Source: Bacteroidota bacterium
GTDB taxonomy: Bacteria; Bacteroidota; Ignavibacteria; Ignavibacteriales; Ignavibacteriaceae
Direction of reading: 5' to 3'
Length of the DNA: 64,000 nucleotides
NCBI GenBank assembly: GCA_021824565.1
Contig: JAKAKL010000018.1
Location: 1-64,000, forward strand
Shown: piece by piece, positions 37,520 through 47,315 of the stretch
Numbering within the stretch: the stretch's first letter is position 1
Layout of the letters: each line of letters opens with the position of its first letter
The notes under the pieces: generated by a model
The model's database searches: none
The model's input: only the letters and a program-made list of their open reading frames with translations
What the model was told of the DNA's origin: nothing
Program-made: the position numbers and the translations under genes

Positions 37520-38884
37520 TTATTTTCCTGGCAGAGAGATTCCTTTTATTCTTCTATATAAGGAAACTGCATAAGAGTCCGTCATGCCTGAGACAAAATC
37601 AATAATATTTAATAAGCGCTCATATAAATTATTACCGGATTTTTCATTTGCAGATATAAACTCTTCCGGCAGAAGCTTAAAAATTGTTTTGCTCTTTGAA
37701 GAAAATTTATTTAGTACAGCTTCATTTACCGGCTTGATAAAAGTATCAAGCAATCCGGCTAAAACTTCGTAGCCGGCGGCTTCTCTTTCAACCACACTTT
37801 CATAAGAGTAGATTTTTCTTATTGAAATATTTTCTATTTTCTTGAGATACTTGCCTTGTGGAATAACTGAAATCAAGTCCTTGTCAAATTTCCCCTCGAT
37901 TATATTTTTTTCTTCATCTAAAAAAATATCTGATAAATAATGCACTAAATCGCTGATGGATTTTGCGCGGAGATAACCTACCTTATCATTTTCACTTCTC
38001 TGTTTGTAGTATTTTAATCCTGCTTTATCGACAAGCGGAAATAAAAGTTCTTCGGTTTCTTTGAATGAAAGAAGCCCAAGTCGAAATCCGTCTTCAAGAT
38101 CCATAATTTGGTAGCATATATCATCTGCCGCTTCGACTAAAAATGTCAGCGGATGTCTATCGTACCATAGAATATCATCATTAAAAAATTTTTTATTTAG
38201 TCCAACTTCCTCCGCAACGTCTTTAAATAAATTTTTTTCTGATTGGAAAAATCCGAATTTTTTATAAATTTTATTTGATTTTAATTTTTCGTTATTAATA
38301 GGAATCGATTCCTTCGGATATTTAGTAAATGCGGCAAGCGTAGCGCATGTAAGACGCAATCCGCCGTTGATATTGGGATTCTGCAGCTTTGTTAAAATTC
38401 TAAAGCCCTGCGCATTGCCCTCAAACTTTGTTAAGTCGCTCCACTGTTTCTCATTCAGTTCATTCTCAAAAAGTTTTCCATTTCCGTTTTTGAAATATTC
38501 CGATATTGAATCCTCACCGGAATGTCCGAAAGGCGGATTACCTATGTCGTGAGCCAGACAAGCGGCAGCTACTATCTCGCCGAAATGAAATTCCGTAAAA
38601 TATTTTTTTAATTTTTTATTTCTTTGTAAGATTCCTTTTCCTACCAAATTTCCAAGCGAACGACCGACGCATGAAACTTCAAGGCTGTGGGTGAGCCTGT
38701 TATGAACGAAATCACTTTCCGGCAAAGGAAAGACCTGTGTTTTATCCTGCAGTCTTCTAAATGCAGAAGAAAAAACAATACGGTCGAAGTCTCTTTGAAA
38801 TTCACTTCTTCCATCGGAATTATTTTTTGAAATATTTTCTTCTTCGCCTAAAAGCTTTCTAGATAAAAGTTGTTTCCAGTTCAC
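37520..38884 (-). CDS. dgt: Deoxyguanosinetriphosphate triphosphohydrolase-like HD protein (dGTPase)
   Basis: A 454-residue HD-domain enzyme. The metal-binding set is visible: HSLEVSCVGRSLG, ACLAHDIGNPPFGHSGE (HD motif) and a later VEAADDICYQIMDLEDG. The N-terminal GRSEFQRDFDRIVFSSAFRRLQDKTQV is the usual dGTPase opening. The family hydrolyses dNTPs to nucleosides and triphosphate. Length is typical of the dgt type 1/2 group. It is divergent from recG; 98 bases lie between. Confidence 0.9.
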   Translation of the reverse strand: MNWKQLLSRKLLGEEENISKNNSDGRSEFQRDFDRIVFSSAFRRLQDKTQVFPLPESDFVHNRLTHSLEVSCVGRSLGNLVGKGILQRNKKLKKYFTEFHFGEIVAAACLAHDIGNPPFGHSGEDSISEYFKNGNGKLFENELNEKQWSDLTKFEGNAQGFRILTKLQNPNINGGLRLTCATLAAFTKYPKESIPINNEKLKSNKIYKKFGFFQSEKNLFKDVAEEVGLNKKFFNDDILWYDRHPLTFLVEAADDICYQIMDLEDGFRLGLLSFKETEELLFPLVDKAGLKYYKQRSENDKVGYLRAKSISDLVHYLSDIFLDEEKNIIEGKFDKDLISVIPQGKYLKKIENISIRKIYSYESVVEREAAGYEVLAGLLDTFIKPVNEAVLNKFSSKSKTIFKLLPEEFISANEKSGNNLYERLLNIIDFVSGMTDSYAVSLYRRIKGISLPGK

Positions 38885-38982
38885 TTGCCATCCAAAGTTA
38901 TTTTTCGCTAATGCAAAATAAAGATAAAAACTGAAAGTTCGATTGGTTTGTAAATACTCTTGCCGGGAATTATTTTTATTCT

Positions 38983-41193
38983 ATGAATTCTGAAAATGAA
39001 AAAATATTAAATCAATCTGTTCAATTTATAAAGTCGGTTGGACCTAAGCGTGCAGAATCTTTTAAGCGAATTAATATTACAACAATACGTGACTTGCTTT
39101 TTTATTTTCCATCAAGACATCTTGATCGAACAACAACATTAAACACATCAAAAGCCTATGACTATCTGCTCAACGGTTTTAATGGAGAGATTACGATAAT
39201 CGGAACTGTAGTTGAAAAAGAAAAACTCCACTTCGGCAAAAAAGAATTATTTAAAGTACAGTTTCGAGACTCAACTGGATTTTTTGAATGTGTTTGGTTT
39301 CAAGGAATAAAATATTTTACAAATGTTTTCAACGCTGGTGATATTTTTGCAGTCTCCGGCAAGCCAGTAATTTCCAAATTCAATGCCCTTCAATTTACGC
39401 ATCCGGACTTTGATAGGATAAGTGAGGATGAGTCGAAAAAATTTTTGAACACTGGAAAGATAATTCCATTTTATAGAATTCCTAAGGAACTTAAGACTAC
39501 GAATATCGGCGACTTTAGCCTTCGTAAAATAATCGGTTCCACCGTAGAAAATTATGCTAATTATCTCGATGATACTTTGCCTGAATATGTGTTGAAGGAG
39601 AATGACATTTATGGATTAGTAGAGGCTGTAAAAAATTATCACTTCCCGGAGAGCAGAGAAAAGCTTTCGTCGGCAATACAGAGATTCAAGTTTGAAGAGC
39701 TGTTTTATCTCGAGTTGCTCGTCGCGTTAAGAAAGCATAATTATAAAACGAAGTTTGCCGGGCATTCAATGAAAGTTCAAACAAACCTTGTTAGTAATTT
39801 TTTAAAAACACTTCCTTTCAAATTAACGAACGCTCAGTTAAAAGTTTTAGGCGAAATAAGACAAGATATGGAAGAACCGCAGCCGATGAATAGATTGCTG
39901 CAAGGAGACGTGGGCAGCGGGAAAACAATAGTTGCCCTTATAGCTATGCTGATCGCTGTTGACAACGGTTTCCAGACTGCGCTGATGGCGCCAACAGAAA
40001 TTTTAGCTGACCAGCATGCTAAGAATATTTCTGCGCTTTTGAAAAACATGTCCGGGATTTATTCGGGCAGAGAAATAAAAATCAGCTTGCTCCTCGGCGG
40101 ACAGAAAAAATCCGTGAGAGAAAAAAATCTTGAAGAGATAGAACTGAAAGAAGCTGACATAATCATAGGCACGCACGCATTGTTTGAAGAGAAAGTTAAA
40201 TTTCAAAAACTTGGTTTGATCATTGTAGACGAGCAACACCGCTTTGGCGTAGATCAAAGAGCAAGGCTTCAGAATAAAGGAATAACGCCGGATATAATCG
40301 TAATGAGCGCAACACCTATTCCGCGCACTTTATCTATGACAGTTTACGGCGACCTTGATGTTTCAATCATTGATGAAATGCCTAAAAACAGATTACCCGT
40401 TAAAACTATTTTGCGCGGAGACAGATCACTTCCAGATATTTATAAATTTATAGTTGATAAGTTGAAAGAAGGCTATCAGTCTTTTATTGTTTATCCCCTC
40501 GTTGAAGAATCTGAAAAACTTGAACTTAAAGCCGCGGAGACTTTTTATAAGGACTTAAAAGATTCCCATCTCAAAGATTTAAATGTCGGTTTGCTTCACG
40601 GCAGAATGTCTTGGAGGGAAAAAGAAGAAATGATGTACATGTTTCTTGCAAAAAAATTTGACGTTTTAATTGCTACCACCGTTATCGAAGTAGGAATTGA
40701 TATTCCTGATGCAAATATAATTTTAATTAATGACGCTCATAGATTTGGACTTTCGCAGCTCCACCAGCTTCGAGGAAGAGTCGGACGAGGTACTAAGCAA
40801 GCATACTGTATCCTTGTTACGAAAGATGAATACGCCGTTATAAATAATAAATACAAACTTGATCTCGACTATCTTTCCCAGATCCAATTAGATAGATACC
40901 GTGCTGCTGTCAGAATGCAGGCTATGATTAATTCTAACGACGGATTTAAAATTGCCGAAGTTGATCTAAAGCTTAGAGGACCGGGGAACATTTTCAGCAC
41001 GCAGCAGAGCGGCTTCCCGGAGCTTCGTCATGCAGATATTAGTCAAGACAGCGATCTAATTCTGAACGCAAAGCAAAAGGCTTTTGATCTTGTCAGGGAA
41101 GATCCGAAACTAACGCTTGAAAAAAATTCCATCGTGAAAAAAAACTTGCTTCAACATTACTCGCACAATCTTAAATACGCTCAGATTGCGTAA
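38983..41193 (+). CDS. recG: ATP-dependent DNA helicase RecG
   Basis: A 736-residue branch-migration helicase acting on stalled forks. Order: N-terminal helical and wedge (OB) domain (KSVGPKRAESFKRINI, LLFYFPSRHLDR), then SF2 motifs: Walker A GDVGSGKT near residue 308, DEQHRFGV, MSATPIPRTL, TTVIEVGIDIPDAN, QLRGRVGRG and the C-terminal LKLRGPGN. Size is normal for Bacteroidota RecG. It is followed by the AT-tract region before the ATP-grasp operon. Confidence 0.95.
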   Translation: MNSENEKILNQSVQFIKSVGPKRAESFKRINITTIRDLLFYFPSRHLDRTTTLNTSKAYDYLLNGFNGEITIIGTVVEKEKLHFGKKELFKVQFRDSTGFFECVWFQGIKYFTNVFNAGDIFAVSGKPVISKFNALQFTHPDFDRISEDESKKFLNTGKIIPFYRIPKELKTTNIGDFSLRKIIGSTVENYANYLDDTLPEYVLKENDIYGLVEAVKNYHFPESREKLSSAIQRFKFEELFYLELLVALRKHNYKTKFAGHSMKVQTNLVSNFLKTLPFKLTNAQLKVLGEIRQDMEEPQPMNRLLQGDVGSGKTIVALIAMLIAVDNGFQTALMAPTEILADQHAKNISALLKNMSGIYSGREIKISLLLGGQKKSVREKNLEEIELKEADIIIGTHALFEEKVKFQKLGLIIVDEQHRFGVDQRARLQNKGITPDIIVMSATPIPRTLSMTVYGDLDVSIIDEMPKNRLPVKTILRGDRSLPDIYKFIVDKLKEGYQSFIVYPLVEESEKLELKAAETFYKDLKDSHLKDLNVGLLHGRMSWREKEEMMYMFLAKKFDVLIATTVIEVGIDIPDANIILINDAHRFGLSQLHQLRGRVGRGTKQAYCILVTKDEYAVINNKYKLDLDYLSQIQLDRYRAAVRMQAMINSNDGFKIAEVDLKLRGPGNIFSTQQSGFPELRHADISQDSDLILNAKQKAFDLVREDPKLTLEKNSIVKKNLLQHYSHNLKYAQIA

Positions 41194-41464
41194 CTAAGAA
41201 TTAGAATTTGTTTTTAAAATCACCAGAACAAAAATTTTTTTCTGAAATATCTCTTCAGCTATTTGATTAATAAAATTTTTTTATTATAAATTTGTCGTGC
41301 AAAAAAAATTTTTTTCTTTGACATCATTGTTAGATAAAAAAAATTTTTCTTCAGCGAGAAAATTTTTTATTGGCGCTTGAAAAAATTTTTACTCGTGAGC
41401 AAAAATTGTTGACTTAAAAATTTTATTAGTTATATTTGTTAAAAAAATACTGAAGGAGAAAAAT
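41194..41464. promoter_or_regulatory. A/T-tract-rich intergenic region, probably bent DNA
   Basis: This 270-base spacer holds seven An-Tn tracts of 9 or more bases with A/T junctions near 41234, 41275, 41308, 41343, 41362, 41385 and 41420. Such tracts bend DNA and bind nucleoid proteins. The spacing is only partly in helical phase. No hairpin terminator for recG is obvious. Confidence 0.5.
41409..41438 (+). promoter_or_regulatory. Promoter of the ATP-grasp/KamA operon
   Basis: TTGACT at 41409-41414 and TATATTTG at 41431-41438 match both sigma-70 (-35/-10) and the Bacteroidota -33/-7 (TTG, TAnnTTTG) pattern. The AAGGAGAA ribosome site follows at 41453-41460. Confidence 0.5.
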
Positions 41465-42547
41465 ATTTTATCCTCTTTGTTCAATGTTAGATTGAACGTT
41501 GCGTTAAGTTTTAATGTCAAGCCTGAAAGTCAACCTTTCCCTGAAATCGTACCCCCTAATTTGAAAGATCAGCCTGCACAGCTTCAAAAGTCAATAGATA
41601 CTTATGCAGAATGGGATACATGGGATACTATAAACGCACTTAAAGAAGCTCTCGAATGCTATAATGATGTTGCTTTAATCGAAGCAGATGACTTTGCCTT
41701 CGATAAATTTAAGGAAGCAGACCCCGACATTGTATTTAATGTTGCTGAAGGTTTTGCCGGATCAAGCCGAGAGGCGCAGATACCGGCAATACTTGACATG
41801 CTTAGAATTCCTTACAGCGGTTCGGATCCACTAACGCTTACAACATGCCTTGACAAAGCCCGCACAAAGGAAGTTTTATCTTATTATAATATTCCTAATG
41901 CAAAATTTTTAATTGCGTTTACTCCGGACGACGCTAAAAATATTAAATTAAAATTTCCGCTTGTGGTTAAGCCGATTTGCGAAGGATCAAGCAAGGGAAT
42001 TTTTTCATCTTCGTTTGTTAGAAATCAAAAAGAGCTTGATGATGAAGTTGAACGTGTTGTAGTCGAATACAGCCAGCCGGCTTTGATAGAACAATTTCTT
42101 CCGGGCAGAGAATTTACGGTTGCTGTTATTGGAAATGGCGCTGAAGCAGAAATCCTCCCTATCGTAGAAATTAATTATAAAGATTTTCCCGAAGATTTTA
42201 TTCCGCTTTATTCCTACGAAGCAAAATGGATTCTCGATACAAAAGAAAATCCCCTCGATATTTTTTCATGTCCGGCTAAAATCAATTCTTCACTTGAAAA
42301 TAAAATAAAACAAACTGCGCTTAGGACTTTTAATGTACTTCGCTGCAAAGATTGGGGGAGGATTGACTTAAGACTAGATGAAGATGGAATGCCGAATATA
42401 ATTGAAGTAAATCCGCTTCCTGGAATTCTTCCCGATCCGAAAGATAATTCTTGCTTTCCTAAAGCAGCAAGAACAAGCGGTTTAGGGTACAATGATATGA
42501 TCAACAAAGTTCTTTTTGTCGCGGCCAAGAGACATAACCTGTTATGA
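41465..42547 (+). CDS. ATP-grasp ligase, D-Ala-D-Ala-ligase-like (first of two)
   Basis: About 356-360 residues, cytoplasmic. The N-terminal domain has FNVAEGFAGSSREAQIPAIL and IPYSGSDPLTLTTCLDK, as in D-Ala-D-Ala ligases; the ATP-grasp part has PLVVKPICEGSSKGIF, LIEQFLPGREFTV and the Mg-binding end EVNPLPGI. Such enzymes join a carboxylate to an amine using ATP. The start is unclear: a TTG at 41477 is 18 bases from the AAGGAGAA site, whereas an in-frame ATT at 41465 is 6 bases from it, and no ATG fits. I give the ATT as start. It overlaps the next gene (ATGA) and heads the operon. Confidence 0.85.
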   Translation: MLSSLFNVRLNVALSFNVKPESQPFPEIVPPNLKDQPAQLQKSIDTYAEWDTWDTINALKEALECYNDVALIEADDFAFDKFKEADPDIVFNVAEGFAGSSREAQIPAILDMLRIPYSGSDPLTLTTCLDKARTKEVLSYYNIPNAKFLIAFTPDDAKNIKLKFPLVVKPICEGSSKGIFSSSFVRNQKELDDEVERVVVEYSQPALIEQFLPGREFTVAVIGNGAEAEILPIVEINYKDFPEDFIPLYSYEAKWILDTKENPLDIFSCPAKINSSLENKIKQTALRTFNVLRCKDWGRIDLRLDEDGMPNIIEVNPLPGILPDPKDNSCFPKAARTSGLGYNDMINKVLFVAAKRHNLL

Positions 42548-43605
42548 AAACCGACGCAAAGATATTGATCTGCTATAATTCCCCTGTTGCTGTTTTTTCT
42601 ATATACAATGGCAAACCGGACAGCGATAATGAGCCTTCAAGCGATCTTTCGGAGAGCGGTTTCACTAAAGAAATTTCAAAAATCAAGAAAAATCTGTTAC
42701 AAAATTACTCCGAAGTAAAAACACTTGCGATTGATAAAAATATTGAACGCACTATAAAAGAAATAAACAATTACTCGCCTGATATAATCTTTAACTTTGT
42801 CGAGTCGGTTGAAGGTATAGCCGCTTACGAATATTGTATGGCGGGAGTTTACCAGCTTCTCGATTATAATTTTACAGGCAACATGCCGGCTACTCTTGGT
42901 AATTGTCTTAACAAAAAAAGGGCGAAAAATATTTTGAGATCATTTGGTATTGATACACCCCAATCCTCTGTAGTAAAAATATCTGACAGCTTTCCTGATA
43001 TGGAATTTAATCTGAGCTTCCCGGTCATTCTAAAATTGCTCAAAGAAGATGCGAGCATAGGCATTTCCGAATACTCGGTTGTAAAAGATATTAACTCTCT
43101 AAGAAAACATTTAAAGTTCCTGCAAAAAACTTATAAGCAGGATATTATGATAGAAGAATACATCGAAGGTCGCGAGTTGAACGCGGCAATACTCGGCGGC
43201 ACTGTTCTTCCTCTCTCAGAAATAAATTTTGAAGGTCTTCCCGAAGACTTACCTAAGATAGTAACATACGACGGTAAATGGATTGAAGAAAGTATTTATT
43301 ATAAACATACTAAACCCGTTTGTCCGGCAAAAGTAAATGCTAAACTGAAAAATAAAATTGAAAAAACCGCTTTGCGGGCATATGAAGCAATGGGGTGCAG
43401 AGATTACGCGCGCGTAGATATTCGCGTTGATAAAAATAATGTTCCTTTTGTAATTGAAATAAATCCTAATCCGGATATTTCAAAAGACTCAGGCTTTGCG
43501 CGGGCCGCTCAGGCAGCAGGTATCTCGTACGATATGCTGCTCAAGCGGATAGCTGATTTTGCTTTATTAAGAGAAAAAAATGATTCGCAGAATAAAGCAA
43601 GCTGA
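42544..43605 (+). CDS. ATP-grasp ligase, D-Ala-D-Ala-ligase-like (second of two)
   Basis: A 353-residue paralogue-like ligase, clearly different from its neighbour. It has IIFNFVESVEGIAAYEYCMAG, NFTGNMPATLGNCLNKKRAK, the ATP-binding loop LKLLKEDASIGISEYS, MIEEYIEGRELNAAILGG and the Mg-binding motif EINPNPDIS. The glycine loop EGSSKG of the first enzyme is EDASIG here, so substrates probably differ. It overlaps the preceding gene by 4 bases and the GNAT gene by 26 bases, a sign of tight co-expression. Confidence 0.85.
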   Translation: MKTDAKILICYNSPVAVFSIYNGKPDSDNEPSSDLSESGFTKEISKIKKNLLQNYSEVKTLAIDKNIERTIKEINNYSPDIIFNFVESVEGIAAYEYCMAGVYQLLDYNFTGNMPATLGNCLNKKRAKNILRSFGIDTPQSSVVKISDSFPDMEFNLSFPVILKLLKEDASIGISEYSVVKDINSLRKHLKFLQKTYKQDIMIEEYIEGRELNAAILGGTVLPLSEINFEGLPEDLPKIVTYDGKWIEESIYYKHTKPVCPAKVNAKLKNKIEKTALRAYEAMGCRDYARVDIRVDKNNVPFVIEINPNPDISKDSGFARAAQAAGISYDMLLKRIADFALLREKNDSQNKAS

Positions 43606-44068
43606 TGCTGTTGCGATTGAAAAAATGTTGAAAAAGATTTCCAACTTCACTGAAACTGAAGTAGATGTGGCTATGGAGCTGGTAAATATAGCGGCTAATA
43701 ACCAGCTGCAGAATGATTATAATATTTTTATTTATGAGCATGAAAATAAAATATTAGGTTATCACTGTACGGGCAGAAGACCTTTAACAGATGGCGTATT
43801 TGATTTATACTGGATTGTTGCCGATCCGGAATCCACTGTAAAAGGCATTGGCAAAAAACTTCTTGAACATGCAGAAGATCTTGTTAAAGAAAATAAAGGA
43901 AGATGGCTTCTTGCGGAAACGTCTTCCAAAGCTGGATATGAAAAGACAAGAAGTTTTTATTTAAGGAACAATTTTTCAATTATCGCGCAGATAAATGATT
44001 TCTATACTGTTGGCGATGGTATGATTATATTCGGAAAATATTTTTATCAAAAACAAACTGAGGCTTAG
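43580..44068 (+). CDS. GNAT acetyltransferase in the ATP-grasp/KamA operon
   Basis: A 162-residue GNAT: acetyl-CoA loop region WIVADPESTVKGIGKKLLEHAE (KGIGKK), preceded by GYHCTGRRPLTDGVFDLYW and followed by LAETSSKAGYEKTRSFYLRNNF and DFYTVGDGMIIFGKYF. These conserved-looking blocks differ from RimI and suggest a dedicated small-molecule enzyme. Next to a lysine-aminomutase-like gene it recalls the ablB beta-lysine acetyltransferase, but it is much shorter than archaeal AblB and the role is inference. Overlaps its upstream neighbour by 26 bases; 2 bases before KamA. Confidence 0.8.
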   Translation: MIRRIKQADAVAIEKMLKKISNFTETEVDVAMELVNIAANNQLQNDYNIFIYEHENKILGYHCTGRRPLTDGVFDLYWIVADPESTVKGIGKKLLEHAEDLVKENKGRWLLAETSSKAGYEKTRSFYLRNNFSIIAQINDFYTVGDGMIIFGKYFYQKQTEA

Positions 44069-44070
44069 TC

Positions 44071-45234
44071 ATGGAACTGTGGCAGCAAATGATCCGAGAC
44101 AGTGTTCACACTGTGGATCAGCTTGTAGAAAAATTTAATATAGATCGAAAAGTTGCCGAGGATCTGGATGAATTTTTCCAGGCGCGAATAAATCCATATT
44201 ATTTAAGTTTAATTAGATATCCGGGCGATCCTATCTGGCGTCAATGCGTCCCGGATAAAGTTGAACTTGATGATATCGATTCTGAAGAAGATCCGCTGAT
44301 GGAAGATGCTATGAGCCCCGTTCCCAACATTACTCACCGCTATCCAGATCGCGCTCTCTTCCTTGTTACAAGCCAGTGCGGTTTGTATTGCCGTTTTTGC
44401 ACACGCAAACGCAAAGTAGGCGATTACGAAAAAATTTCTATGAAAGGATTAGAAAGTGCCTTTCAATATCTTGAGCAGCATACGGAAATAAGAGACGTAA
44501 TTATGTCGGGCGGCGATCCGTTGATGCTTACGGATGCTATGCTTGAAAAAATTTTAGAACGTTTGCGTTCAATTCCGCATATTGAAATTATTCGTCTCGG
44601 TTCAAAAATGCCATGCGTTCTTCCCCAGAGAATTACTCCGCAGCTTTGCAACATGCTGAAAAAGTATCATCCGATTTATCTCAACACTCACTTTAATCAT
44701 CCTTGGGAAATAACCCCTGAAAGTTCCAAGGCATGTACAATGCTTGCCGATGCGGGTATTCCGGTAGGCAACCAAATGGTTCTGATGAAAGACGTGAACG
44801 ATGATCCGGCAGTAGTTAAAGAATTAATGCAAAAGCTTCTTAAGATTCGCGTTCGACCTTACTATATGTATATGGCTGACGAAACAAAAGGCGCTAATCA
44901 TTTTAGAACATCGATAGAGACCGGGTTAAATATAATTGAAAATCTGCGAGGACATACCAGCGGACTTGCAATCCCTCATTTTGTAATTGACGCACCAGGC
45001 GGAGGAGGAAAAATTCCTCTCCTGCCAAATTATGTAGTTCATTTTGACGAAGAAAAAATTATTCTCCGCAATTACCAGAAAAAAATTTATTCTTATAAGA
45101 ATTATCACGATAAAAATAATCCTGTTAAGAAAAACGGAATTAACGGTAAAAACGGCAAGAACGGCAGAAGTAAACCGAAAGAAATTAAAATAACTAAAAT
45201 TGAACTGCCTGTTCTGGAAGAGGTGGAAAATTAA
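44071..45234 (+). CDS. Lysine 2,3-aminomutase-like radical SAM/PLP enzyme (KamA family)
   Basis: A 387-residue enzyme with the radical SAM cluster motif C103-x3-C107-x2-C110 (CGLYCRFC), SGGDPLML, HFNHPWEITPES and the PLP-lysine motif DAPGGGGK (K314). Both aspartates that bind the lysine side-chain amine and mark lysine aminomutase appear kept: D270 in YMADETKG and D307 in DAPGGGGK. EpmB-type proteins lack the second motif, so conversion of L-lysine to beta-lysine is plausible. The C-terminal ~45 residues are a Lys/Asn/Gly-rich tail (NGINGKNGKNGRSK) of unknown use. Last gene of the operon, closed by a terminator. Confidence 0.85.
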   Translation: MELWQQMIRDSVHTVDQLVEKFNIDRKVAEDLDEFFQARINPYYLSLIRYPGDPIWRQCVPDKVELDDIDSEEDPLMEDAMSPVPNITHRYPDRALFLVTSQCGLYCRFCTRKRKVGDYEKISMKGLESAFQYLEQHTEIRDVIMSGGDPLMLTDAMLEKILERLRSIPHIEIIRLGSKMPCVLPQRITPQLCNMLKKYHPIYLNTHFNHPWEITPESSKACTMLADAGIPVGNQMVLMKDVNDDPAVVKELMQKLLKIRVRPYYMYMADETKGANHFRTSIETGLNIIENLRGHTSGLAIPHFVIDAPGGGGKIPLLPNYVVHFDEEKIILRNYQKKIYSYKNYHDKNNPVKKNGINGKNGKNGRSKPKEIKITKIELPVLEEVEN

Positions 45235-45243
45235 TATTAACAG

Positions 45244-45272
45244 AAGGAGCGGTTCAAGCCGCTCCTTTTTAA
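45244..45272 (+). terminator. Terminator of the ATP-grasp/KamA operon
   Basis: A 9-bp G+C-rich stem AAGGAGCGG (45244-45252) with CCGCTCCTT (45259-45267), 6-base loop and T-run, 9 bases after the KamA stop codon. Confidence 0.88.
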
Positions 45273-45395
45273 ATAAAAACTTCAAGAGCCAATCTCAAAT
45301 TTTCCTTCTTTTATTTTTGAGAAGTATTTTAGCTTAAAGCCATAATAAGCGAATTTCTTAAATTTAAAGTGTAAAATTAATTTCGTTTAGAGAAC

Positions 45396-46535
45396 ATGAA
45401 TTTAGTAGTAGATGAAAATATTTCATTCGGTCAGGAAGCATTTTCACAATTTGGAAATGTCAAACTCCTTCACGGAAGAAAAATAATTAATGAAGAGTTA
45501 AAGAATGCCGATGTCTTGATAGTCAGATCTATCACGAAAGTAAACAAAGAACTGCTCGAAAATACTCCGGTGAAATTTGTAGGGACGGCAACGATTGGGA
45601 CAGATCATATAGATTTAGAATATTTAAACTCAAGAGGAATTTATTTCAAAGATGCTGCTGGATGTAATGCTGATGCAGTTACTGAGTATGTTTTCACATC
45701 AATTTTAAATTTTGCTGTCGATAATTCATTTTCAATTGAAGGGCAATCCATCGGAGTTATCGGCATCGGCAATATAGGCAGCCGGATTTCAAGGCTTGCA
45801 GAATGGCTCGGAATGGATGTCCTTAAAAACGATCCGCCGCAGCAGCGGAAAACCGGCGATCAAGATTACGTTTCTCTAGAAGAGGCGCTGAGAGCGGATA
45901 TAATTACTTTTCATGTTCCATTAAATCTTGACGGGATAGATAAAACCTTCCATCTAATCGATGAAAGAAAATTATCAACACTCCGAGAAAAACAAATTAT
46001 AATAAATGCTTCACGCGGGCAGGTAATTGACAATCCTGTCCTTCTGAAATTTATTAGTGAAAAAAACTTACTTGTAAATCTTGATGTTTGGGAAAATGAG
46101 CCGGCAATAAATGTTAATTTGTTGAACTGGGTTCATTTAGCGTCCCCGCATATTGCCGGTTATTCTCTTGAAGGAAAAATAAATGGAACTGTAATAATAT
46201 ATAAGGCACTTTGTAACTTTCTAAATGCTGCGGCAACCTGGTCGCCTTTTTTACCAGAAGTTCAGAATAACGAAATTAAAATTAATTATGACGGCAATTT
46301 AACGAAGACTTTGCATGAAATATTTAATTCTGTTTATCCTATTAAAGAAGATGATTCAAGGATGCGTGCTATGAAAAACATGAAAGATAAAGATCGTGCA
46401 GCTTACTTTGATAAATTACGGAAAGAATATCCTTTGCGCCGGGAGTTTAAAAATTATAAAGTAACGTTGTCAAATGCGGATGAAAAAATTGTGAATGCTT
46501 TGAGAAAGTTCCGATTTTATGTTGAAGCAAATTAG
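45396..46535 (+). CDS. pdxB: Erythronate-4-phosphate dehydrogenase
   Basis: A 379-residue D-2-hydroxyacid dehydrogenase. MNLVVDENISFGQEAFSQFG, GTATIGTDHIDLEYLNSRGI and AAGCNADAVTEYV are PdxB-specific; the NAD loop is GVIGIGNIGSRI; catalytic Arg, Glu and His are in INASRGQVID, WENEPAI and ASPHIAGYSLEGK. PdxB oxidises 4-phosphoerythronate in de novo pyridoxal-phosphate synthesis. The C-terminal dimerisation domain is present (length equals the enterobacterial enzyme). Single gene, convergent with the YwqK-TonB gene. Confidence 0.92.
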   Translation: MNLVVDENISFGQEAFSQFGNVKLLHGRKIINEELKNADVLIVRSITKVNKELLENTPVKFVGTATIGTDHIDLEYLNSRGIYFKDAAGCNADAVTEYVFTSILNFAVDNSFSIEGQSIGVIGIGNIGSRISRLAEWLGMDVLKNDPPQQRKTGDQDYVSLEEALRADIITFHVPLNLDGIDKTFHLIDERKLSTLREKQIIINASRGQVIDNPVLLKFISEKNLLVNLDVWENEPAINVNLLNWVHLASPHIAGYSLEGKINGTVIIYKALCNFLNAAATWSPFLPEVQNNEIKINYDGNLTKTLHEIFNSVYPIKEDDSRMRAMKNMKDKDRAAYFDKLRKEYPLRREFKNYKVTLSNADEKIVNALRKFRFYVEAN

Positions 46536-46547
46536 TTATTTAGAAAA

Positions 46548-47315
46548 TTATTTTAATTTGAACTCAACATGAATTTTTGTTTCAACCTTTACAGGCTTGC
46601 CTTTAATCATGCCTGGCTTGAACATCGCATAGAACACAGCTATCTTTGCGGCTTCATCGCAGCCATAACCAATTCCCTTTAGAACTTTTGCATAATTTAC
46701 TTCCCCGTACTCATCAATGTCTGCTAAGATTAAGACGGTACCTTCAATTTTATTTTTTTGAGCTGCAAGCGGATATACCAATTTATTTTCAATCGCATTC
46801 ATTCCGCCCACTGGTTCCGGCATTATGTCCGCAGCTGTTAGATAATCGGAATTATCAAATTCGTTTTTAGTCTTTTGTACTTGTACCGAGTCATTAGGGG
46901 GATTCTTCTTGGAAGTACTATCAGAAGAAGTAATTGCAGAAAACAGTGTCGTCGTGTCTACTTCTAAGTGCTGTAATATACCTGCTTCGTAATTATTATC
47001 TTTCAAGTAATCACCGTCTTGAGAATATTCCGACGCAGCTCCTTCTCGCCTACCATTTTGAATTGTATAAAGCTCTTTGAGTTTTCCATTTTCATAATAC
47101 TCTTTAACCACTCCGTCAACAGCTCCGTTTACGTAACTTAATTCTTCTTTTAAATTCCCATCCGGATAATAAAACTTAGCGGCACCTTCCCGAACATTAT
47201 TTGAATAATTTATTTCGGATTTTACTTTGCCGTTATCGTAATACGTTTTGATCAGCCCCTGCTGTGCGTAAGCGCTGGTAAGCGTTATGAACATTAAAAG
47301 AAAAATTTTAATCAT
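46548..47315 (-). CDS. Exported YwqK/MORN-like repeat protein with TonB C-terminal domain
   Basis: A 255-residue protein with signal peptide (MIKIFLLMFITLTSAYAQ). Residues about 20-115 hold four YwqK/MORN-like repeats (YYDNGKVKSEINYSN, YYPDGNLKEELSY, YYENGKLKELYTI, YSQDGDYLKD). After a polar linker, residues about 165-255 form a TonB_C domain: MPEPVGGMNAIENKLVYP, GTVLILADIDEYGEV and PVKVETKIHVEFKL. It lacks a transmembrane anchor and Pro-rich spacer, so it is not a standard energy transducer; it is more like exported TonB_C proteins of Bacteroidota. It is last on the strand of the envelope operon, 21 bases after the HEAGH protein. Confidence 0.8.
   Translation of the reverse strand: MIKIFLLMFITLTSAYAQQGLIKTYYDNGKVKSEINYSNNVREGAAKFYYPDGNLKEELSYVNGAVDGVVKEYYENGKLKELYTIQNGRREGAASEYSQDGDYLKDNNYEAGILQHLEVDTTTLFSAITSSDSTSKKNPPNDSVQVQKTKNEFDNSDYLTAADIMPEPVGGMNAIENKLVYPLAAQKNKIEGTVLILADIDEYGEVNYAKVLKGIGYGCDEAAKIAVFYAMFKPGMIKGKPVKVETKIHVEFKLK

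Follow-up and report, generated by a model that had tools for sequence, protein, structure and literature searches.

What do two ligases, an acetyltransferase and an aminomutase make together when their genes are packed into a single run? The question is raised by positions 41465-45234 of the DNA analysed here, a window of 64,000 nucleotides (the whole stretch, contig JAKAKL010000018.1 of assembly GCA_021824565.1) from a member of the Ignavibacteriaceae in the phylum Bacteroidota. Its plus strand encodes two ATP-grasp ligases related to the D-alanine-D-alanine ligase Ddl, which we call G1 (41465..42547) and G2 (42544..43605), followed by a GNAT acetyltransferase (43580..44068) and a KamA-family radical S-adenosylmethionine (SAM) aminomutase (44071..45234). 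Pfam placed Dala_Dala_lig_C in both G1 and G2, Acetyltransf in GNAT, and Radical_SAM with LAM_C in KamA. These assignments were joined by alignments of all four proteins, by NCBIfam for the ligases and KamA, by AlphaFold models for the ligases and by a structure match for GNAT. The genes had been described from the letters alone as overlapping or nearly touching, and this was borne out: G1 and G2 share 4 bases, G2 and GNAT share 26, and a gap of 2 bases separates GNAT from KamA. We propose that the operon makes a small amide containing beta-lysine, such as an acetylated di- or tripeptide or a similar conjugate. This proposal was built from sequence, and we consider it about equally likely to be right or wrong.

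We observed that the gene order was widely conserved. The complete order G1-G2-GNAT-KamA was present in 71 of the 80 named loci, or in 72 with L149, where the second ligase scores best as G3 (a paralog of G2, described below); 8 loci showed fewer of the four genes, their contig ends not having been checked singly. The named records include the cultured Stygiobacter electus (L127). In other orders of the class, each of the 13 contexts retrieved (L156-L164, L167-L170) likewise carried the complete order. A genome-context survey for gene order had been suggested beforehand, and it found the order far beyond close relatives. Whole-genome searches for relatives were confined to the phylum. Among the genome itself and its relatives (n = 59), a close G2 was found in 52 and a close KamA in 50, each on the contig of G2 (counted by hand). 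The two genomes with G2 and no close KamA were G021, whose contig stops inside GNAT (L026), and G045, in which G2 is cut short. In a phylum sample of 395 genomes, a strong G1 (E < 1e-120) occurred in 67, and 65 of those had a close KamA (E < 2e-119; again a hand count), the exceptions being G045 and G370.

In families f24, f39 and f51, which belong to other classes, G1 and KamA were unlinked. The GNAT ortholog was followed through 38 genomes in total. It was present in 11/11 of the genomes with dispersed genes, which had a close KamA in 10/11, and in the variant genome G416. It was missing in 19/19 searched genomes without the operon, in 4/5 genomes from families with KamA-ligase pairs (G291 gave a weak match) and in 2/2 genomes of f26. 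The retention of the four genes even where they are scattered is good evidence for a single pathway.

We further examined which reaction KamA may carry out. The protein scored 309.6 bits against the KamA family model TIGR00238, above the cut-off of 199.2, and it aligned with the lysine 2,3-aminomutase 2a5h across residues 4-343. D270, D307 and K314 were matched in this alignment; they correspond to the two lysine-binding aspartates and the pyridoxal phosphate lysine. The sequence-only reading had pointed to these three residues, and they held up both against 2a5h and in 16/16 operon KamAs; they were also retained in 4/4 dispersed copies aligned. Since the EpmB protein of elongation factor P (EF-P) modification belongs to the KamA family, and KamA gave 235 bits here against the EpmB model, the enzyme could be an EpmB, with the ligases as unrelated passengers. 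We regard this as highly unlikely, as the score lies below the cut-off of 369.3 and KamA tends to be present where the ligases and GNAT are. No EpmA above cut-off was found in the genome either (best match 256.9 versus 286.9), and the best match, a frame of 513 amino acids, would fit a lysyl-tRNA synthetase. An EF-P-type modification, one of the product roles listed from the letters alone, was thus rejected, with EpmA and EpmB both below cut-off. KamA could also open a lysine fermentation, as in clostridia, a known role of KamA; the strict linkage of KamA to the ligases and GNAT speaks against this, and we find it hardly credible. Lysine 5,6-aminomutase (PF09043) gave no match in the genome, and the control genomes were equally silent. 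Defence genes were rejected as well, PADLOC having returned one weak match of a viperin model to KamA (E 3.1e-4).

The two ligases were then compared with Ddl. Against TIGR01205 (cut-off 245.65) G1 reached 157.9 bits and G2 132.8, and against PRK01372 (cut-off 243) they reached 185.4 and 152.8. Both stayed under the cut-off of every Ddl model among the NCBIfam matches listed (the best 25 of 42 and the best 25 of 39 families, respectively), while a separate gene elsewhere in the genome passed the Ddl cut-off with 319 bits. On these scores, G1 and G2 are probably not ordinary Ddl enzymes, and this identity, which the sequence-only reading had named as fatal to its proposal, is not supported by them. 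AlphaFold models were obtained with a mean predicted local distance difference test (pLDDT) score of 82.4 for G1 and 88.0 for G2, and in a structure search the best 50 matches listed for both models were Ddl-type ligases only. G1 and G2 have the predicted fold and the C-terminal domain in common with the Ddl/VanA superfamily, but besides missing the listed cut-offs they differ from Ddl at single residues. In the alignments a tryptophan follows the conserved lysine in both ligases, where Ddl has a tyrosine, and in G2 the oxyanion glycine is replaced by aspartate. The alignment of the ligases with Ddl was misaligned in the N-terminal region, and the donor-amine glutamate was not read from it.

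The ligases also differ from each other. G1 carries the motif NPLPG, along with a serine ahead of PKAAR, whereas the motif is NPNPD in G2 and also in G3, its paralog. It follows that the acceptor sites of G1 and G2 should differ, and the different substrate loops claimed earlier found their counterpart in these C-terminal motifs. A ligase tree split G1 from G2 with moderate support; its root is meaningless, as the outgroup was an AAA ATPase and not a Ddl. A third ligase, G3, which is of the G2 type and about 40% identical to G2, is encoded in the same genome away from the operon (L031 7892-8947, minus strand). It stands alone, its neighbour being a divergent gene that encodes a C39-peptidase-like domain, and G3-like matches were seen in many relatives. 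The ligases might build a part of the cell envelope or peptidoglycan, such as a beta-lysine cross-bridge or cap, with GNAT acting on that part; the predicted closeness of both folds to Ddl, and the occurrence of a third copy in many genomes, would suit such a role. However, the true Ddl is encoded elsewhere, and among the neighbour families of the named loci no Mur, transporter or envelope gene was a conserved part of the operon. We therefore judge an envelope role to be quite improbable.

For GNAT, the closest solved structure was 2r7h (E 4.5e-31, the next match being at 1.2e-05), which is known by its deposit as a putative D-alanine N-acetyltransferase. No functional test of 2r7h was found in the literature searched. 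Plasmid-borne GNAT relatives (3 contexts of 7 records) had no annotated ligase nearby. The AblB model TIGR03827 had no match in the genome, the same model matching in 5 control genomes, and AblB was absent among the matches listed for the 16 GNATs compared (the best 25 of 30 families). GNAT as AblB was rejected on these results. This sets the operon apart from ablAB, in which KamA and AblB make N-epsilon-acetyl-beta-lysine. A lysine-type KamA and a GNAT are common to both, but the operon has a GNAT other than AblB, two extra ligases, and a KamA that falls below the AblA cut-off and is without the zinc cysteines (see below). Another parallel is N-acetylglutaminylglutamine amide, a dipeptide solute whose synthesis relies on an acetyltransferase together with an ATP-grasp ligase. 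That system combines GNAT and ATP-grasp enzymes like the operon; the aminomutase is found only in the operon and the amidotransferase only in the known system.

From these families and retained residues, we infer the substrates, the order of the steps and the product as follows. KamA would convert L-lysine to beta-lysine. G1 and G2 would perform two ligations, ATP activating a carboxylate as an acyl phosphate to which an amine would then be joined, and GNAT would acetylate one amine. As a first guess, and a tentative one, the product may serve as a protective solute. The small beta-lysine-containing peptide or conjugate of the sequence-only reading thus keeps its lysine-type KamA, its non-Ddl ligases with different motifs and its broad conservation, and loses the EF-P role.

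Several observations weigh against an amide of beta-lysine. Against the model of the lysine 2,3-aminomutase AblA (TIGR03820), KamA scored 468.5, below the cut-off of 525.4. At the sites of the cysteines that bind structural zinc in the classical lysine 2,3-aminomutase, the operon KamAs have a cysteine replaced and lack the C-terminal cysteines; the cysteine of the first site is missing also in some sequences annotated as ablA, e.g. from Cytobacillus. Both G2 and KamA were absent from 7 of the 59 genomes mentioned above, and the operon is therefore dispensable. We also examined 20 contexts of KamA, selected from 122 genomes by the position of this gene. In 14 of these there was no nearby G1-type ligase, and several of the 14 resemble ablAB by eye; the other 6 (L210, L212-L216), which count in favour of a common pathway, had a ligase matching the G1 model at most 1 kb away, on the same strand as KamA. 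The first aspartate position is occupied by glutamine in the KamAs of L212-L217 and by arginine in those of L189 and L190. The pairing of KamA with a ligase is hence no argument per se for lysine, and the common denominator would be beta-amino acids rather than lysine alone. The same logic may thus apply to another substrate, KamA using another amino acid or an already-joined lysine, so that a different beta-amino acid would enter the conjugate. The score below the AblA cut-off and the non-lysine residues of the related pairs favour this possibility, but both aspartates and the lysine are present in all 16 operon KamAs, and we consider it rather unlikely.

Pairs of KamA and ligase were also met with outside the operon. 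One more was found at L165 through its ligase. On a plasmid of Thioflavicoccus mobilis, a convergent KamA lies 29 bases from the ligase, beside diamino-acid genes, and on two rhizobial plasmids a ligase is paired with a relative of KamA (L189, L190). The plasmid contexts were found through ligase matches and are hence a biased sample. No aminomutase was annotated in 7/9 of the rhizobial ligase contexts (L185, L186, L187, L191, L192, L221, L223), or in 8/10 with L222. On further rhizobial plasmids (L188 4485-7092 and L197 5950-8409) KamA relatives adjoin another type of ATP-grasp enzyme, which in L188 matches the L-amino acid ligase domain.

Two loci showed variant arrangements in the absence of the standard operon. 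L210 (4257-9798) carries, in this order, KamA, G1, G2, a GNAT joined to a histone-deacetylase-like domain and another GNAT. L229 (4906-8063) encodes a fusion of a Ddl-like ligase with peptidase S58, followed by a histone-deacetylase-like gene; peptidase S58 includes beta-aminopeptidases, which cleave beta-amino acids off peptides, and the fusion speaks for the proposed conjugate. The deacetylase-like protein was matched in only 2 of the 395 genomes, which indicates that the variant is rare. In family f39, the gene immediately ahead of the lone G1 encodes a small protein, probably membrane-bound, with no Pfam match (L151 7528-8007, minus strand; L155 5762-6187, plus strand).

The start of G1 raised a further question. 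Gene finders begin G1 at a TTG at 41477 or 41492, of which the former is not conserved in congeners and the latter is. The codon at 41465..41467, with which the region of the sequence-only reading begins, is ATT, and it is ATT in 11/11 congeners aligned; judging from the sequences, we think that this very rare start codon is the real start. It is preceded by a Shine-Dalgarno-like AAGGAG (41453..41458), and an AAGGA/AGGAG-like site was seen in most loci listed. The start regions were counted in 57 distinct, readable cases from the 80 named loci. G1 has a conserved first strand, LNVALTFNVKPE; no usual start codon keeps a fixed position across these loci. Nine codons before the strand, about 4 to 9 bases downstream of the AAGGA/AGGAG-like site, an isoleucine codon stood in 51/56 (19/22 after thinning), and ATG, GTG or TTG stood there in 0/56. 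Within codons -8 to -10 an isoleucine codon (AUU, AUC or AUA) was present in 55/57.

Between the in-frame stop and the strand, 11 of the 57 loci had no ATG, GTG or TTG and 8 had one only upstream of the site. The remaining loci had only a TTG at the first codon of the strand (24), a GTG or TTG in between (12) or a nearby ATG (2), and two further sequences had ATG at the strand itself (L103, L032). The intervening residues were conserved (serine at -7 in 45/56, arginine or lysine at -1 in 53/57), and the first residue of the strand was leucine in 54/57, through several codons. Conserved residues ahead of a leucine encoded in varied ways suggest that translation should begin upstream of the strand. 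The same kind of count gave an ATG start in 55/55 KamA and 56/61 GNAT genes; for G2 (21/74 ATG) the pattern was too loose to be usable as a control. In other orders and classes, G1 had ATG or TTG directly at the strand in all 11 readable of 14 contexts. If the AUU start is real, the usual gene callers shorten G1. A perfect 7-base inverted repeat follows the start (arms 41479-41485 and 41491-41497) and is invariant in 11 congeners; its folding was not significant (z -1.54, with 13/200 shuffles as good).

Non-AUG starts of this kind are known from infC and sigR. In the infC of the same genome (L231 1477-2016, minus strand) the start likewise lacks ATG, GTG and TTG, and an ATC downstream of AGAGG seems to take their place. 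The GTC start of Streptomyces sigR is repressed by initiation factor 3 (IF3; PMC5472188). G1 has a conserved non-AUG start in common with these genes, but it heads a metabolic operon, and its control by IF3 is hypothetical. The AUU start would hold the expression of G1 low and possibly open to IF3 control.

Upstream of the start, a probable promoter of the Bacteroidota type (TTG-N19-TATATTTG, 41409..41438, plus strand) was predicted from the consensus of the phylum, and its boxes TTGACTTA and TTATATTTG were invariant in an alignment of 11 congeneric sequences. At the other end, a single terminator had been claimed. By eye, a GC-rich stem (GGAGCGG/CCGCTCC) followed by five T at 45246..45270 closes the gene set and is a probable terminator; the terminator scan did not list it, and the only two terminator-like sites of that scan were on the other strand. 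The operon is flanked by recG upstream and a pdxB-like gene downstream. recG was upstream in 77/80 named loci, the remaining flanking families being mixed. A known RNA element at the locus was rejected, as Rfam gave 0 matches at the gathering threshold in 38000-47000.

No description of the cluster was found in the literature searched, which left most subscription journals outside, and for Ignavibacteria and aminomutases only glutamate-1-semialdehyde aminomutase turned up there. A wider picture, which is possible although we would not expect all of it to hold, is that Ignavibacteria and some sister lineages share a core small molecule, an acetylated peptide of beta-lysine assembled through two ATP-grasp ligations. 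Its synthesis would be one case of a broader, undescribed class of pathways where a G1-type ligase receives beta-amino acids from KamA-type aminomutases, and one bacterial order would tune it by an AUU start under IF3, like infC. Conservation of this depth, in a pathway whose product has not been described, points to a new metabolite in a group that is widespread and mostly uncultured, and it suggests a general use of KamA enzymes in supplying peptide ligases. Should the AUU start be real, this would be a rare case of a metabolic operon that opens with a codon of the type seen in infC.

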